Below, in pieces: positions 42,730 through 48,832 of a DNA stretch of 64,000 bases (position 1 is the stretch's first letter; each line of letters starts with the position of its first letter). This DNA is from Sulfurovum sp. FS08-3 (GTDB lineage: Bacteria; Campylobacterota; Campylobacteria; Campylobacterales; Sulfurovaceae), in contig JQIS01000005.1 in the NCBI GenBank assembly GCA_000830175.1, positions 1 through 64,000 of the forward strand, in the 5' to 3' direction. The notes below the pieces were generated by a model. That model was not told where the DNA came from, made no database searches, and was given only the letters and a program-made list of their open reading frames with translations. Made by a program: the position numbers and the translations under genes.

Positions 42730-42735
42730 TATAAT
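42730..42735 (+). promoter_or_regulatory. -10 box ahead of the CNNM leader peptide
   Basis: TATAAT, placing transcription start near 42742 and giving a leader of about 90 bases before the CNNM transporter gene. Confidence 0.5.
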
Positions 42736-42769
42736 CTTGTTTAATAATTTTGTAAAGGATTAAGAAAAA

Positions 42770-42835
42770 ATGAGTTCATCCGACTCTTATAATAGGCGTA
42801 CCTCAACGATTACTTTTGCGAGGTACGCACAATGA
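42770..42835 (+). CDS. 21-residue leader peptide (uORF) of the CNNM transporter gene
   Basis: ATG behind an AAAGGA site opens MSSSDSYNRRTSTITFARYAQ and stops with TGA overlapping the ATG of the transporter gene (ATGA). It contains both arms of a 9-bp hairpin. The peptide is rich in Ser/Thr/Arg and has no signal or membrane segment, so it is more likely regulatory than functional as a protein. Translation would melt the hairpin that covers the downstream ribosome-binding site. No known leader peptide was recognised. Confidence 0.55.
   Translation: MSSSDSYNRRTSTITFARYAQ
42796..42828 (+). promoter_or_regulatory. Hairpin sequestering the ribosome-binding site of the CNNM gene
   Basis: GCGTACCTC (42796-42804) is perfectly complementary to GAGGTACGC (42820-42828), with a 15-base loop. 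The right arm contains GAGGT, the only ribosome-binding site for the ATG at 42832. Folding would block initiation unless the leader ORF is translated through it. Confidence 0.6.
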
Positions 42836-43917
42836 CCCTGTTGCTTACTTATCTATTTGCTGCACTGTTTATCTCTTTTTTGTGTTCTGTCCTTGAGGCT
42901 GTTTTGCTCTCTAGTACCTCTTCGTATATTGAAACTTTGGCAAAAGATGGCGATACCAAAACCTCTAAAATGTTAAAAGACCTAAAGTCCAATATTGATA
43001 AACCCATATCTTCAATCTTAACCCTCAATACCACTGCTCATACCATGGGGGCTGCGGGTGTAGGTGCACAAGCTCAAATTTTATTTGGCAACGAGTGGCA
43101 AACTTTGATTGCATTTATTTTAACTCTATTGATTCTCTATTTTTCAGAGATTATTCCCAAAACAATCGGTGCAATTTATTGGAAAAATCTTTTGGTTCCA
43201 GCTGCCTACATCATATCATTTATGATTAAAATTACCTATCCTTTGGTTTGGTTTTCGGGCTTAATAACAAGCTATATCTCAAAAAGCAAAAAAGAGGAGA
43301 TTAATTTCTCACGAGATGAGATTATGGCGGTTGTCTCCATGGGAGAGAAAGAGGGTTCTATCCAATCCAAAGAGAGCCTTTTAATCGAAAATCTCTTAAA
43401 GCTCAAAAATATAAAAACAAAAGCCATTATGACACCTCGAAGTGTCGTTTTTGCACTTAATGCCGATATTACCGTCCAAGAAGCTATCGAAGATGATAAG
43501 ATGTATATTCATTCAAGAATACCCATCTACAATGAATCCATTGATGATATTATCGGGGTTGTCTTTAATCAAACGATTTTAGAAGAGAGTGTTGAAGAGA
43601 GAGACCAAACGCTTCTAAGAGACATTACCGTTGCGGTTCATAAGATTTCAGAGAATGTTCCCGTTTCGGTACTTATAGATCTCTTTGTAAAACGCAAAAC
43701 ACACCTCTTTGTGGTGCATGATAGCTACGGACAAACCAGTGGTGTTGTGACACTCGAAGATGCCATAGAGACACTGCTGGGCGTAGAGATAGTCGATGAG
43801 ATGGATGAAGTTGAAGATATGCAAGTTTTAGCAAAAGACAAAAGCAAACGATTTCAAGATAAGCTATTGGTAGAAAAGAAAAGATTGCAAAATTTAGATT
43901 CATCGAAAAAAAATTAA
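42832..43917 (+). CDS. CNNM-CBS membrane protein (CorC/CorB-type ion transporter)
   Basis: A 361-residue inner-membrane protein. An N-terminal CNNM/DUF21 domain with about four hydrophobic segments (1-160) contains the EIIPKTIG motif, and is followed by a CBS pair (about 195-320; MTPRSVVFAL, HSRIPIYNESIDDIIGVV, VTLEDAIETLLGVEIVDE). The C-terminal CorC_HlyC domain is absent. Members of this family export Mg2+ or other divalent cations, with the CBS pair sensing ATP-Mg; this role is inferred. Its expression is probably set by the leader peptide/hairpin overlapping its start. Confidence 0.85.
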   Translation: MTLLLTYLFAALFISFLCSVLEAVLLSSTSSYIETLAKDGDTKTSKMLKDLKSNIDKPISSILTLNTTAHTMGAAGVGAQAQILFGNEWQTLIAFILTLLILYFSEIIPKTIGAIYWKNLLVPAAYIISFMIKITYPLVWFSGLITSYISKSKKEEINFSRDEIMAVVSMGEKEGSIQSKESLLIENLLKLKNIKTKAIMTPRSVVFALNADITVQEAIEDDKMYIHSRIPIYNESIDDIIGVVFNQTILEESVEERDQTLLRDITVAVHKISENVPVSVLIDLFVKRKTHLFVVHDSYGQTSGVVTLEDAIETLLGVEIVDEMDEVEDMQVLAKDKSKRFQDKLLVEKKRLQNLDSSKKN

Positions 43918-44031
43918 CATTTGTTGCACACCTCCTTGGTCAATTGCTCTCAAAAGGCAGTTGTCGTTGCGAGGCACAAAACTATTACCAAAAAATAAAT
44001 ACCATACCATTATCTCTCAAAAAGGAACACA

Positions 44032-44922
44032 ATGAAATTTGTAGGAGCGCATGTAAGCAGTAGTGGCGGAGTCGATAACGCACCGTTAAACGCCATGGAG
44101 ATAGGAGCCAAAGCTTTCGCACTCTTTACCAAAAACCAACGCCAATGGGTCGCCAAACCACTTGAAAGCAAAACCATTGATAAGTTTGTGGAAAATTTGG
44201 AAAAGAGCGGGATTTTGCCCAAACATATTTTGCCTCACGATAGCTATTTGATCAATCTAGGGCATCCAGACAAAGAGCAACTCGAAAAATCACGCCACGC
44301 TTTTATCGATGAGTTGCAACGTTGCCAACTTTTGGGGCTTGATAGACTCAATTTTCACCCAGGTAGCCATTTGGTCAAACTATCCAAAAAAGAGCCTCAC
44401 TACGCTCAAATGTTGCAAGAGATAGAGGATAGTTGCCTCGAAGTCATAGCCGATTCGATGAATAGAGCCATTGAGGCGACGAAAAACTCCTCTGTCAAGC
44501 TTGTCATTGAAAACACCGCAGGACAAGGGAGCAATTTGGGTTATCGCTTTGAACATCTAGCCAAACTCATTGAACTAGTCGAAGACAAAAGCCGTGTGGG
44601 AGTTTGTCTTGATACCTGTCATACCTTCACATCGGGATACGATTTGCGAACCCGTGAAGCTTATGATGCGACGATGGATGCTTTTGAGAAGATTGTAGGA
44701 TTTGAGTATCTTATGGGTATGCACATCAACGACTCCAAACCCACCCTTGGCTCACGTGTCGATAGACACCACTCGCTAGGCGAAGGAGAGATTGGCTGGG
44801 ATACCTTTGGATTTATCATGAACGATAGTCGCATGGATGATATACCTTTGATACTCGAAACCATCGACGAATCGCTCTGGGCAAAAGAGATTAGAGATTT
44901 ATATCATTTGATAGCGAAGTAG
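44032..44922 (+). CDS. nfo: Endonuclease IV (AP endonuclease)
   Basis: Nfo nicks DNA 5' to abasic sites in base-excision repair. The 296-residue protein carries the family's zinc-ligand motifs: [57 protein letters not shown] and LETID. All nine metal ligands appear intact. Its stop codon touches the stop of the converging subtilase gene. Confidence 0.97.
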
Positions 44923-46043
44923 CTACTTTTTATACTCCTTAGCTGCCAATACTGCTTTGTAGGCATCGATTTTGCCGTAGGCGTATTTGCGGTTCCATCC
45001 TGCGATGTACTCTACGTCTCCTATCTTTTGGGCGTTGGTGATGATAATTTCACGCACCTCTTGGGGTGTGAGGTCGGGATTGACACTGAGCATCAAGGCT
45101 ACTACACCTGAGACAATAGGAGCCGATGCCGATGTACCCGAAAAAAGGTATATCCATCCTCCAATATCCCCTCGTGTAAACCCAACTGATACGCTCCATA
45201 GTCATCGGTTGCGACGATACCAATACGCTCACCTGCTGGAGCTAAAATATCAATACTATCGCCGTAGCTTGAGTAAGAGGAGCGGGTATTGGATTCGCTA
45301 CTCGACCCCACCCCCAAAACAAAAGCGAGTTCGGATTCATCATTAATGCCGTAGCGATCCAAACTGTAGCCATCGTTGCCCGAAGCAAACACCACGACAA
45401 TACCTTCATCGTAAAGCTCTTTGATTTTATGGGCAACAGCGTCGGAGACATTGTTGGTACCCCAACTGCAATTAATCACTCTAGCCCCACTCTTTTGGGC
45501 ATACTCAAAGGCTTTGAGCGTATCGGCATCGGTGGTAAGTTGGCTATCTTGAATCAAAACAATTTTTGCTTTAGGAGCGACTCCTATCGTGCCTACACTG
45601 TTGGAAACAGCCGCCACAATACCTGCAACAGCCGTGCCGTGTGTGCCAAGCCCCTCACTTGAGACTTCATCGTTCTCATTGATTACACTGTAAGTTAAAA
45701 CAATATTATCTTTTAAATCTTCATGATTGGCTTCAAATCCATTGTCAATAATAGCAATGGCTATCCCCTCCCCTTTGGTAATCTCCCACGCTTTGGCGAC
45801 ATTGGCTGAGGAGTCTTGGGTAATAGCGTAGTTGTATCCAAAAGTGCGATTGGTGGGTGCTTCGATATGCCATAGGTATTGTCGGTAGGGGTCTTGTAGC
45901 TTAGCCACCTTGCCATCATACAACAAAGAGCTATCAATAAGAGGCTTTGGGGTTGTGTTTGCATCGATAGAGGTTGTGCCACCTCCGCCTCCACAAGCGA
46001 CTAAACCAAAAGCCAAAAAGAGTGTGTAGGTTATGTTTCTCAT
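44923..46043 (-). pseudogene. Subtilisin-like (S8) serine protease with a frameshift before the catalytic serine
   Basis: The open part (45102-46043) encodes a lipoprotein-type signal (LVACGGGGG), the Asp motif IIDNGFEANHED, the His motif GTHGTAVAGI and the oxyanion Asn in NCSWG and FASGNDG. The frame then fails at a run of six T's (45141-45146 on the plus strand read as A's). In the next frame the protein continues with SGTSASAPIVSGVVALM, the catalytic serine motif, and ends at 44923 in KEYKK. One missing base in the run explains everything. The gene is therefore inactive as written, or switched off reversibly, or miscalled. The start overlaps the propeptide-like gene by four bases. Confidence 0.8.
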
Positions 46044-46414
46044 CGTGATTGTTTGGCTTTGATAAAATTGGGATGAGCGGATGCAACCCCCTCTTCATGA
46101 TAGATTAAAGCAGCGATTTCAAAAACCCTATCCCTTGGAGTCACTTTGCATCGATAAAAACGGTTGCCTATCTTTTCAACGACATCAATAGGATATTTTG
46201 CAACCAGCGTATCAATACTTTGCGTTTCAATAATAATCTCATCGCCTACCCACACGGTTCTATTGTATTCATCTACAAAGGTATCAACCGACAAATGCGA
46301 ACGTAAAGGAGTATCTTGTTTGGTGAGATATACTTTTTGAGCGTTTTGGTAGTAGAAAGTTTGCGGATATAAAAACGAAGAGAGTATCAACAAAAAAACC
46401 ATCTGTTTTTTCAT
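46040..46414 (-). CDS. Secreted subtilase-propeptide-like protein
   Basis: A 124-residue exported protein: signal peptide ending near LYPQ, then a domain with VYLTKQDTPLRS and KVTPRDRVFEIAALIYHEEGVASAHPNF. The ending EGVxxAHPNF is the familiar end of S8 protease pro-domains, where it precedes the mature enzyme. Here it is encoded separately, its stop overlapping the protease start (ATGA). It is probably a folding chaperone or inhibitor acting in trans; this is inferred from resemblance and gene order. Confidence 0.6.
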   Translation of the reverse strand: MKKQMVFLLILSSFLYPQTFYYQNAQKVYLTKQDTPLRSHLSVDTFVDEYNRTVWVGDEIIIETQSIDTLVAKYPIDVVEKIGNRFYRCKVTPRDRVFEIAALIYHEEGVASAHPNFIKAKQSR

Positions 46415-46446: not shown

Positions 46447-46520
46447 AAGAAGCAAAGCCCCTTGCAAATTCCTCTCACTAAAGCTTCGCCCTTGGCGAGA
46501 GAAACCTTTATGATTTTGAC
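46447..46520. repeat. 74-bp tandem repeat, unit 1
   Basis: Identical to the following unit over 71 bases. Each contains an inverted pair CTCTC...GAGAG, so each RNA copy can fold. Lies between the propeptide-like gene and bamA. Confidence 0.9.
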
Positions 46521-46591
46521 AAGAAGCAAAGCCCCTTGCAAATTCCTCTCACTAAAGCTTCGCCCTTGGCGAGAGAAACCTTTATGATTTT
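46521..46591. repeat. 74-bp tandem repeat, unit 2
   Basis: Second copy, ending six bases before the bamA stop codon. The doubled hairpins lie where a bamA terminator would be expected on the minus strand. Confidence 0.9.
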
Positions 46592-46597
46592 AAGGGG

Positions 46598-48832
46598 TTA
46601 AAATTTTGTCCCCATTGAAAATTCAAAGGTACTTGTGCTATCACCTGTCTCATCATCCAAAGCTTTGGCAAAGACGAGATTGATAGGACCAAAGCCCGAT
46701 TGCCACTCGATGACGACACCCGCTGAACTTCGTTTGATCTCATCAAAGCTATCTTCACCTATCATACCGTAGTCATAGAAACCTGTCAAACGCATTTTGG
46801 CTTCGGTAGAGAGCGGGATACTTGCCTCGATACTGGTTGTGAAGTTTTGAAGTCCCCCTGTTCGTCTGCCCAATGTATCTCTAGGAGAGAGTGAGTAGGC
46901 GTTGTATCCTCTTAAGCTTCCAATACCACCCATAAAGAGTTTTTCAGCAATAGGCACATACCCCTCGTCGGTGATGTAATTAACTCTGGCTTTGTATCGC
47001 AAAATCAAATCGTAATCAATAATATCTTGGAAACCGTAATAAGCACCAAATTTTGCTTTGTATTTGATAAACTCAGCATCTCCGCCCAATCCAGCATATT
47101 CGATGTTGAGTCCTGCAATGATACCCTCACGTGCTACATAAAAATCATCGGTGTTGTCGAAATTAAATCCAAGAAGTCCTGCACTTTTGATATATGTACC
47201 TGTAAAGATAGGGTCAATTACCCCTCCACCAATAGCGTTGGGATTGGCAGCGTTATTGGCTTCATGGAAATCAGTATCAACATAGGCGTATCCCAATGAA
47301 GCATAGAAGTTTCGAGTAAGCTGTTTGCCCACCGCAATACTTCCACCAATTTGCTCTTGATCATAATCGATATACTCATAGTCTCGTTTGTAGAGGTTGA
47401 GTGCCAATGAGTATTCGCTATCAAAGATTCTTGGGTTGGAGAAACCTACATTGTAGTTGGTTGAGACCTCCGAAACATCAAATCCTAGACTCGCCGTAAT
47501 CCCTGTACCAAAGATGTTTTTATCCGATACACTCGCATTGAGCATAAACCCTTCATAGCTTCCGTATCCACCCCCTGCAGTAATACTACCTGTGGCAGTC
47601 TCTTCGACTTTGACGTGCAAATCAACTTTGTCGGCCGATACACGCTTAGGAGTAATATCGACTTTTTCAAAAAATCCTGTACGTCCCAAAGCACTTTTGG
47701 AGTCTTTGAGATCGGTATAGCTATAGGTATCGCCTGGAGCTAGATAGATGTAGCGTCTAACTACGCTATCTTTTGTCGCACTGTTTCCTGAAATGATAAC
47801 GTCATTGATTTTGACTTGATCACCTGCAAGAACCTGATAGGTTACGCTTACTTTTTTGTTTTGGGTATCTTTTTGGAAGTTTGGCACGATTTGGGCGTTG
47901 GCATATCCCAAATTTCCTACTTGTTCGGTGAGGTATTTGATATCTTGTCGCACTCTTTCGATGTTAAAGACACGCCCCGTTTGAAGCCTAAACTCATCTT
48001 TATCAACGGTGAGTCCTGGTACATTTTGCATAATATCGACACGTGCAACACGGTATTGTACCCCTTCATTGACGACATAGTTTACCTCAGCGTTGTAAGT
48101 ACCAAAATCGACACGCATAACAGGTTTACTTACAGTTGCATCAAGGTATCCTTGTTCAAGGTAAGCATCTCTTGCACGGTAAGCATCATAAGAGAGCTGA
48201 TCGACATTGGCATCCCCGCTGTTACGTCCTGGCAAAAAGCCCAACACTTCACTCTCTTTGTTGGCGACTTTTTTCTCAATTTCGTTTTTGCTTAGATTTT
48301 TTGCCCCTACGAAATTGACTTTTTTGATATTAATCTTCTCGCCCTTATTGACTTTGAAGGTCAATGCCATACCGTCGTTAATCTTTTTCTCTTCGATATT
48401 GACAACGGTATCGTAGTAGCCCTCCGATTCAATTTTTTTGGTTAGTGCTTGTTTGGCCTTTTCGATGGTGATTTTGTCGTAAAAATCTCCTCGTTTGAGT
48501 CCTACTTGCTCCAATGCCTTGACACCATCTTCCTCACTGCCGTATCCCTCTACGTTGATATTGGTAATGGCATTTTTCTCTTTGACGTGATAGACCAAGC
48601 CTCCGCCACCTCTGTTTTCGACATAGACATCACTAAAGTAACCCTGAGCAAAAAGTTTTTTGACTGACTCATTGACACGTCGAGAATCCAATGGATCTCC
48701 CACATGAATATCGGCAACCTCTTTGGCTACCTCTGGCGATAAATGCACTAAACCATCGAATTTGATACTTGTAATCTTTTGCCCCATCAAGAGCGAACCT
48801 GCAACAAGTGATAACGCTATAATTTTCTTCAT
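46598..48832 (-). CDS. bamA: Outer membrane protein assembly factor BamA
   Basis: BamA inserts beta-barrel proteins into the outer membrane. The 744-residue product has a signal peptide (SLLMGQ), five POTRA repeats (about 20-390) and a C-terminal 16-strand barrel that ends in FEFSMGTKF, the aromatic C-terminal signature. The conserved barrel-loop motif appears as GSLRGYN (VRGF-type). The frame has an earlier start at 48841, but the MKK start at 48832 begins the signal peptide better. It is the essential copy as far as can be seen. Confidence 0.95.
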   Translation of the reverse strand: MKKIIALSLVAGSLLMGQKITSIKFDGLVHLSPEVAKEVADIHVGDPLDSRRVNESVKKLFAQGYFSDVYVENRGGGGLVYHVKEKNAITNINVEGYGSEEDGVKALEQVGLKRGDFYDKITIEKAKQALTKKIESEGYYDTVVNIEEKKINDGMALTFKVNKGEKINIKKVNFVGAKNLSKNEIEKKVANKESEVLGFLPGRNSGDANVDQLSYDAYRARDAYLEQGYLDATVSKPVMRVDFGTYNAEVNYVVNEGVQYRVARVDIMQNVPGLTVDKDEFRLQTGRVFNIERVRQDIKYLTEQVGNLGYANAQIVPNFQKDTQNKKVSVTYQVLAGDQVKINDVIISGNSATKDSVVRRYIYLAPGDTYSYTDLKDSKSALGRTGFFEKVDITPKRVSADKVDLHVKVEETATGSITAGGGYGSYEGFMLNASVSDKNIFGTGITASLGFDVSEVSTNYNVGFSNPRIFDSEYSLALNLYKRDYEYIDYDQEQIGGSIAVGKQLTRNFYASLGYAYVDTDFHEANNAANPNAIGGGVIDPIFTGTYIKSAGLLGFNFDNTDDFYVAREGIIAGLNIEYAGLGGDAEFIKYKAKFGAYYGFQDIIDYDLILRYKARVNYITDEGYVPIAEKLFMGGIGSLRGYNAYSLSPRDTLGRRTGGLQNFTTSIEASIPLSTEAKMRLTGFYDYGMIGEDSFDEIKRSSAGVVIEWQSGFGPINLVFAKALDDETGDSTSTFEFSMGTKF

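Follow-up and report, generated by a model that had tools for sequence, protein, structure and literature searches.

A conserved short leader overlapping CNNM transporter genes in Campylobacterales and its possible link to Mg2+

In Sulfurovum sp. FS08-3, the start codon of a CNNM-CBS transporter gene overlaps the stop codon of a 21-codon reading frame, which raises the question of whether translation of the transporter depends on ribosomes crossing this leader and, if so, what the leader might sense. Regulation of bacterial Mg2+ exporters is largely unexplored; a Salmonella study of 2025 leaves it open and suggests control based on leaders or on intrinsic ribosome destabilisation (IRD) (PMC12421838), the latter defined in PMC9718836. 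The leader is a conserved, compact element for testing that idea in dozens of species, which are sulfur-oxidising and related bacteria of a phylum with few known leader peptides.

The leader and its transporter in the window

The stretch of DNA analysed (the window) comprises 64,000 nucleotides from the start of contig JQIS01000005.1. Within it, the leader-transporter unit is flanked by a PhoD-like phosphatase gene and an endonuclease-IV-like gene, one on either side, and the nearest named contigs are Sulfurovum MAGs with 98% transporter identity. A sequence-only reading of the window had described a TATAAT box, an AAAGGA site, a 21-codon frame and an overlap of its TGA with the transporter ATG, and direct reading located every one of these (Table 1). 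The perfect 9-bp stem that it had placed over the transporter's GAGGT site was an exact match, both on direct reading and on folding. A second SD-preceded short ORF (43967-44035) overlaps the start (44032) of the downstream endonuclease-IV-like gene.

Table 1. Positions of the leader, stem and transporter features within the window
Feature	Position	Strand	Basis
-10 box TATAAT of the leader transcript	42730..42735	+	Direct reading
SD1 (AAAGGA), ribosome-binding site of the leader	42754..42759	+	Direct reading
Leader ORF MSSSDSYNRRTSTITFARYAQ, 21 codons, stop TGA at 42833-42835	42770..42835	+	Sequence and ORF translation
Leader codons 2-11, conserved: polar/acidic residues, then RR; rare codons	42773..42802	+	Comparison with relatives
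Left stem arm (anti-SD2) GCGTACCTC, within the leader	42797..42805	+	Sequence and folding
Right stem arm GAGGTACGC, including SD2 GAGGT (42820-42824)	42820..42828	+	Sequence and folding
CNNM-CBS transporter gene, ATG at 42832 (ATGA overlap with leader TGA)	42832..43917	+	Pfam CNNM and CBS

The transporter possesses the CNNM transmembrane domain (PF01595, 4.7e-30) and CBS domain (PF00571) that define the CNNM/CorB/CorC family, bearing out its earlier naming as a CNNM-CBS protein, and among solved structures the nearest are archaeal CorB (7m1u/7m1t) and CorC-type CBS domains. It is presumed, by analogy, to be a Mg2+ exporter of the CorB/CorC/MpfA kind, with the direction of transport inferred from family members MpfA and CorC (PMC6711546, PMC12421838). 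MpfA exports Mg2+ (PMC6711546), proteins of the CorC/MpfA type act in Mg2+ export or in protection from Mg2+ (PMC6711546, PMC12421838), and CorC-type exporters are induced by high Mg2+ (PMC12421838). In many relatives (L016-L027, L030 and L107) the CNNM gene lies directly 3' of an apparent mgtE, a Mg2+ importer family, and has no leader; these gene pairs would presumably place an importer and an exporter in one operon. The transporter of the window is placed inside an Aliarcobacter clade of the transporter tree though its genome belongs to the Sulfurovum family, and this nesting suggests that transporter and leader were acquired together by horizontal transfer.

A short reading frame retained across the order

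The transporter was searched for in 60 relatives and then in 399 genomes of the order, and the loci were fetched and their upstream regions read. At 118 loci, encoding 83 distinct peptides, a short ORF stops at or beside the transporter start, in nearly all cases within an ATGA, and either has its own ribosome-binding site or is coupled to the gene before it. Counted over the 133 distinct homologues that form the tips of the transporter tree, the leader is present in 92 (~70%), which span several families of the order. Fourteen of the remaining tips lie directly behind an apparent mgtE, and 27 were scored with neither arrangement, at least two of which (L061 and L095) reflect incomplete data or a leader that ends earlier. 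The leader frame, whose conservation in relatives the sequence-only reading had proposed to check, is kept in these 92 homologues, with the conserved codons at the start of the peptide.

The architecture of the leader is constant in outline. Most leaders are 18-22 codons long (full range 11-32 residues), the stop overlaps the transporter start by +4 in nearly all loci, and AAGGA is found 5' of the leader start in nearly all relatives. A TATAAT match of 5/6 or 6/6 lies upstream of all 57 ATG-type leaders, compared with a shuffled mean of 4.7 of 6, and these matches mostly end 30-37 nt before the leader ATG. At L097-L106 the start of the leader instead shares nucleotides with the stop codon of the preceding gene (ATGTCTGA), which looks like a ubiD-type decarboxylase, so that three cistrons form an overlapping chain. 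The genomic background was ~750 kb from three genomes, and among the 410 SD-preceded genes sampled this arrangement was rare: ~10 had an SD-preceded short ORF overlapping their start.

These leaders form a real, conserved family that is apparently undescribed so far: the literature searched, mostly non-subscription papers, yielded no account of a leader ahead of Campylobacterales CNNM genes. Two further frames deserve mention. At L011 and L159 an open frame (IDSEDQSSIAKAMTKK) ends in ATGA on the CNNM start and would begin with AUA; it is possibly a leader with an unusual start. The leader at L149 (Malaciobacter halophilus; MYEPSESTKSRVK) looks unrelated, and is likewise acidic, Pro-containing and furnished with rare codons.

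Predicted occlusion of the transporter's ribosome-binding site

The ribosome-binding site of the transporter (SD2) lies within the last codons of the leader, where it is predicted to be locked in a hairpin. The 51-nt stretch containing the stem of the window folds at -16.9 kcal/mol (z -4.4), with none of 200 shuffles as stable, and SD2 has an unpaired probability of 0.17. A stem as long over an SD was seen at 3 of the 410 sampled genes, so that a 9-bp stem is unusual for one gene and not extreme for a window of ~60 genes. Perfect 11-bp stems cover the SDs of two other genes, in the Sulfurospirillum sample (L164:6044) and in the Arcobacter sample (L175:7329). The 9-bp stem itself is limited to the genus of the window (L001-L003), where both arms are unchanged in L002 and L003 and the loop varies.

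Compared with synonymous shuffles, SD2 sequestration across the leaders was weakly enriched (15 of 77 in the lowest tenth, median quantile 0.34), and this weak general signal led to a search for a specific partner of SD2. In sister lineages the partner proved to be transporter codons 2-4, which pair with SD2 through AGUGU/ACACU, GGGGU/ACCCU or AGCGU/ACGCU and leave the start codon in the loop. With each lineage represented once, this pairing scored -7.5 kcal/mol in the lineages' own combinations against -5.9 kcal/mol when re-dealt (2 of 5000). Thr2 carried the wobble base that pairs best with SD2 in 10 of 15 lineages, and leaderless homologues lack the codon 2-4 pairing (-2.0 and -1.5 kcal/mol). 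When each lineage contributed a single sequence, accessibility was lower for leader-type SD2s than for ordinary SDs from the same genera (p 2e-5); relative to leaderless homologues it differed only at p 0.08. For Sulfurospirillum and Sulfurimonas there is modest support that a small UAGGA/UUCUA hairpin may hide SD2.

Because relatives hide SD2 by differing pairings, it looks as though the function has been conserved in these predictions while its form changes by lineage. Of the stem proposed in the sequence-only reading, the occlusion of SD2 in the absence of leader translation therefore extends by prediction to relatives, and the particular 9-bp helix stays with the three Sulfurovum loci. Together with the in-frame conservation and the overlap, this sequestration makes it very probable, as judged by comparison, that translation of the transporter depends on ribosomes crossing the leader, which would act in cis as a coupled leader peptide gating the CNNM gene.

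An RNA-level element, such as a riboswitch or a protein-binding hairpin (for example a CsrA site), could in principle control SD2 with the ORF incidental. In its favour, the choice of leader codons is constrained beyond the peptide and some local hairpins exist; the rare codons described below could likewise reflect a conserved RNA motif of fixed sequence rather than slow decoding. However, no Rfam family, including the Mg2+ riboswitch, matched within the window, RNAalifold returned no consensus structure for the Sulfurovum/Arcobacter leaders, and the reading frame, stop overlap and SD1 are all conserved, leaving this explanation very improbable. For the Sulfurospirillum/Sulfurimonas leaders RNAalifold gave two weak helices with little covariation. 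A hairpin over leader codons 5-9 (CCUR..YAGG), spotted by eye, was discarded as it found no support from RNAalifold on the Sulfurovum/Arcobacter set. No terminator was found near the leader.

The peptide start and its possible relation to Mg2+

Conservation within the leader is confined to the first ~10 codons, and the C-terminus drifts. Substitutions in codons 2-10 are most conservative in the leader frame, relative to the other frames, in five of six groups, and codons 11-18 display no conservation, which points to selection acting on the start of the peptide. This start is acidic, often S-D/E-P-D-S or N-D-S followed by R/C; examples are MTQSEPDS(C/R)S, MTPSDPDSCS, MNSNDSYYRR, MNTNDADCRR and MSSDRRC, as well as (TTG)SDPYSRR, (TTG)SDPEP, (TTG)DSDS and MSDSSSKQR. 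Asp or Glu accounts for 122 of 581 residues (21%) at positions 2-8 versus ~3% after position 8. All 27 lineage representatives have at least one acidic residue at positions 2-8, versus ~50% of ordinary genes, and 13 have at least two, versus 11-17%; the 14 lineages with a single acidic residue are weaker in this respect than the EPDP of MgtL. The leaders therefore carry the acidic, often Pro-containing N-terminal motif expected of an IRD leader, with the exception of L003. Its transporter is 98% identical to that of the window, and its leader has lost its only acidic residue (D5N) and kept the remainder, so that either one acidic residue is dispensable or the element is relaxed there.

The same codons are rare in their genomes. 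The rare-codon quantile of codons 2-11 is 0.021 in the leader of the window and has a median of 0.0155 over the 27 lineages, compared with 0.17 for the rest of the leader; it is at or below 0.05 in 18 of 27, and the pattern holds in AT-rich and GC-rich genomes alike. AGG supplies 34 of 59 leader Arg codons versus 10% in the background (AGG is 3% of Arg codons in the group of the window's leader), CGG supplies 6 of 7 versus 2%, and TCG occurs 23 times in one group of leaders, versus a background of 11% of Ser codons.

A small protein acting in trans, for instance as a transporter subunit, might explain why the ORF is conserved and overlaps the transporter gene. Products of 11-32 residues with a mostly hydrophilic conserved end and no conservation at the C-terminus make this explanation scarcely credible, and on account of the free C-terminus it was rejected. 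Amino-acid-specific attenuation was also rejected, because no codon or amino-acid run is common to the leaders.

The best overall explanation, with about an even chance of being right, combines a coupled leader with ribosome drop-off and a Mg2+-gated exporter. The mRNA would start ~30 nt before the leader, as inferred from the conserved -10 box. A ribosome finishing the leader would open the hairpin, whose strand opposite SD2 comprises leader codons 10-12 in the genus of the window and transporter codons 2-4 in sister lineages, and would terminate at the ATGA atop the transporter start; that the transporter would then be made by coupling or reinitiation is well supported by comparison. The first ten codons would be risky, with acidic and Pro/Ser residues and genome-rare codons favouring pausing and peptidyl-tRNA drop-off. 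Hypothetically, since 70S ribosomes are unstable at low Mg2+, most would then abort before SD2 and leave the presumed exporter off, and with ample Mg2+ they would get through the leader and the presumed exporter would be made.

The sensing part of this scheme is the more tentative one. Ribosome stalling or arrest had been proposed as the sensor in the sequence-only reading, and only part of that proposal was retained: arrest at a fixed C-terminal site is disfavoured because the C-terminus drifts, and early pausing or drop-off is favoured in its place, given the acidic residues and rare codons within codons 2-11. Peptidyl-tRNA drop-off belongs to early elongation (PMC10192219), and acidic N-termini destabilise ribosomes with the involvement of Mg2+ in MgtL (PMC11282234) and MgtQ (PMC8092293); on analogy with these two, Mg2+ sensing by the leader is plausible. 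Drop-off together with Mg2+ sensing is nevertheless put at somewhat below an even chance. Points against it are the D5N change in L003, the single acidic residue in many lineages, and the position of AGG, which in the leaders is mostly codon 9, versus codons 2-5 for NGG drop-off in E. coli (PMC12204400).

Coupling without any sensor would account for several of these observations. In that case the leader would set a fixed low level of a membrane protein, with the acidic start and rare codons thinning the ribosomes; the coupling features are strong, the C-terminus is free, and L003 could lose its acidic residue without harm. It leaves unexplained, however, the persistence of the acidic N-terminal pattern and of genome-specific rare codons over several families, as well as the association of the element with a Mg2+ homeostasis gene, and it is regarded as rather unlikely. 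Stalling rather than drop-off is less likely again. A ribosome would pause at about codons 8-10 (RR, RC, CS, QR) on a ligand or on scarce charged tRNA (Arg, Ser), and in the genus of the window would cover the left stem arm and free SD2, resulting in induction. The conserved block ends exactly at codons 8-10, AGG, TCG and CGG are retained against genome preference, and a ribosome on codon 9 of the window's leader would sit over 42797-42805. Yet no single amino acid is shared at the pause (R, C, S, Q, V), and the anti-SD2 of sister lineages is located in transporter codons, so that a pause in the leader would leave the pairing closed.

The drop-off reading places the leader close to two known systems. 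MgtL, which precedes mgtA in E. coli and Salmonella, is also a short ORF heading a Mg2+ transporter mRNA, with an acidic and Pro-containing start followed by an Arg run, and ribosome destabilisation on its acidic motif has been reported (PMC11282234). The impression of the sequence-only reading that the leader resembles none known thus did not hold, since it is similar in kind to MgtL, with no sign of common descent. In contrast to the present leader, mgtL ends 140 nt before mgtA, an ATPase gene, and works via Rho-dependent transcription termination, turning an importer on at low Mg2+; the Campylobacterales leader overlaps the CNNM start, with SD2 sequestered, and is proposed to turn on an exporter when Mg2+ is plentiful. 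MgtQ, the uORF of Salmonella mgtB, shares an early Asp and Glu, ribosome destabilisation and a hairpin hiding the SD of a Mg2+ transporter (PMC8092293). However, mgtQ is intercistronic and of 8 codons, and its abortion promotes importer translation via alternative stems, whereas completion of the Campylobacterales leader is expected to promote translation. The leader would work partly like MgtL and MgtQ and is a member of neither.

Other systems resemble it in part. YoaL-YoaE (MgpA) and CorC/YbeX of enterobacteria protect from an excess of Mg2+. YoaL extends over the start of yoaE, full translation of MgpA requires the YoaL start codon, and an IRD sequence has been reported at the N-terminus of CorC (PMC12421838). 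YoaL, however, is 52 aa long and lacks an acidic cluster, YoaE belongs to the TerC proteins rather than to CNNM, and the mechanism is putative. LeuL-type leaders of the same phylum are small SD-preceded ORFs, with rare Leu codons in LeuL (PMC3847290), but count one amino acid, precede biosynthesis genes and attenuate at transcription.

A more speculative generalization, held to be doubtful, is that the Campylobacterales leaders form a family in which early drop-off reads ribosome stability or Mg2+ and the exporter is on only when the leader is completed, a mirror image of MgtL that evolved separately. If so, Mg2+ homeostasis would have recruited nascent-chain ribosome destabilisation at least twice, to opposite effect in import and in export, and this reversed logic is without description in the papers searched.

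Two observations were made elsewhere in the window. On the minus strand, a subtilisin-like protease gene (44923-46414) is apparently split into three overlapping frames (46040-46414, 45102-46043 and 44923-45096) and is probably a frameshifted pseudogene. Two copies of the peptide MQIPLTKASPLARETFMIL are encoded by overlapping ORFs at 46462-46601, in a direct repeat of ~74 bp.
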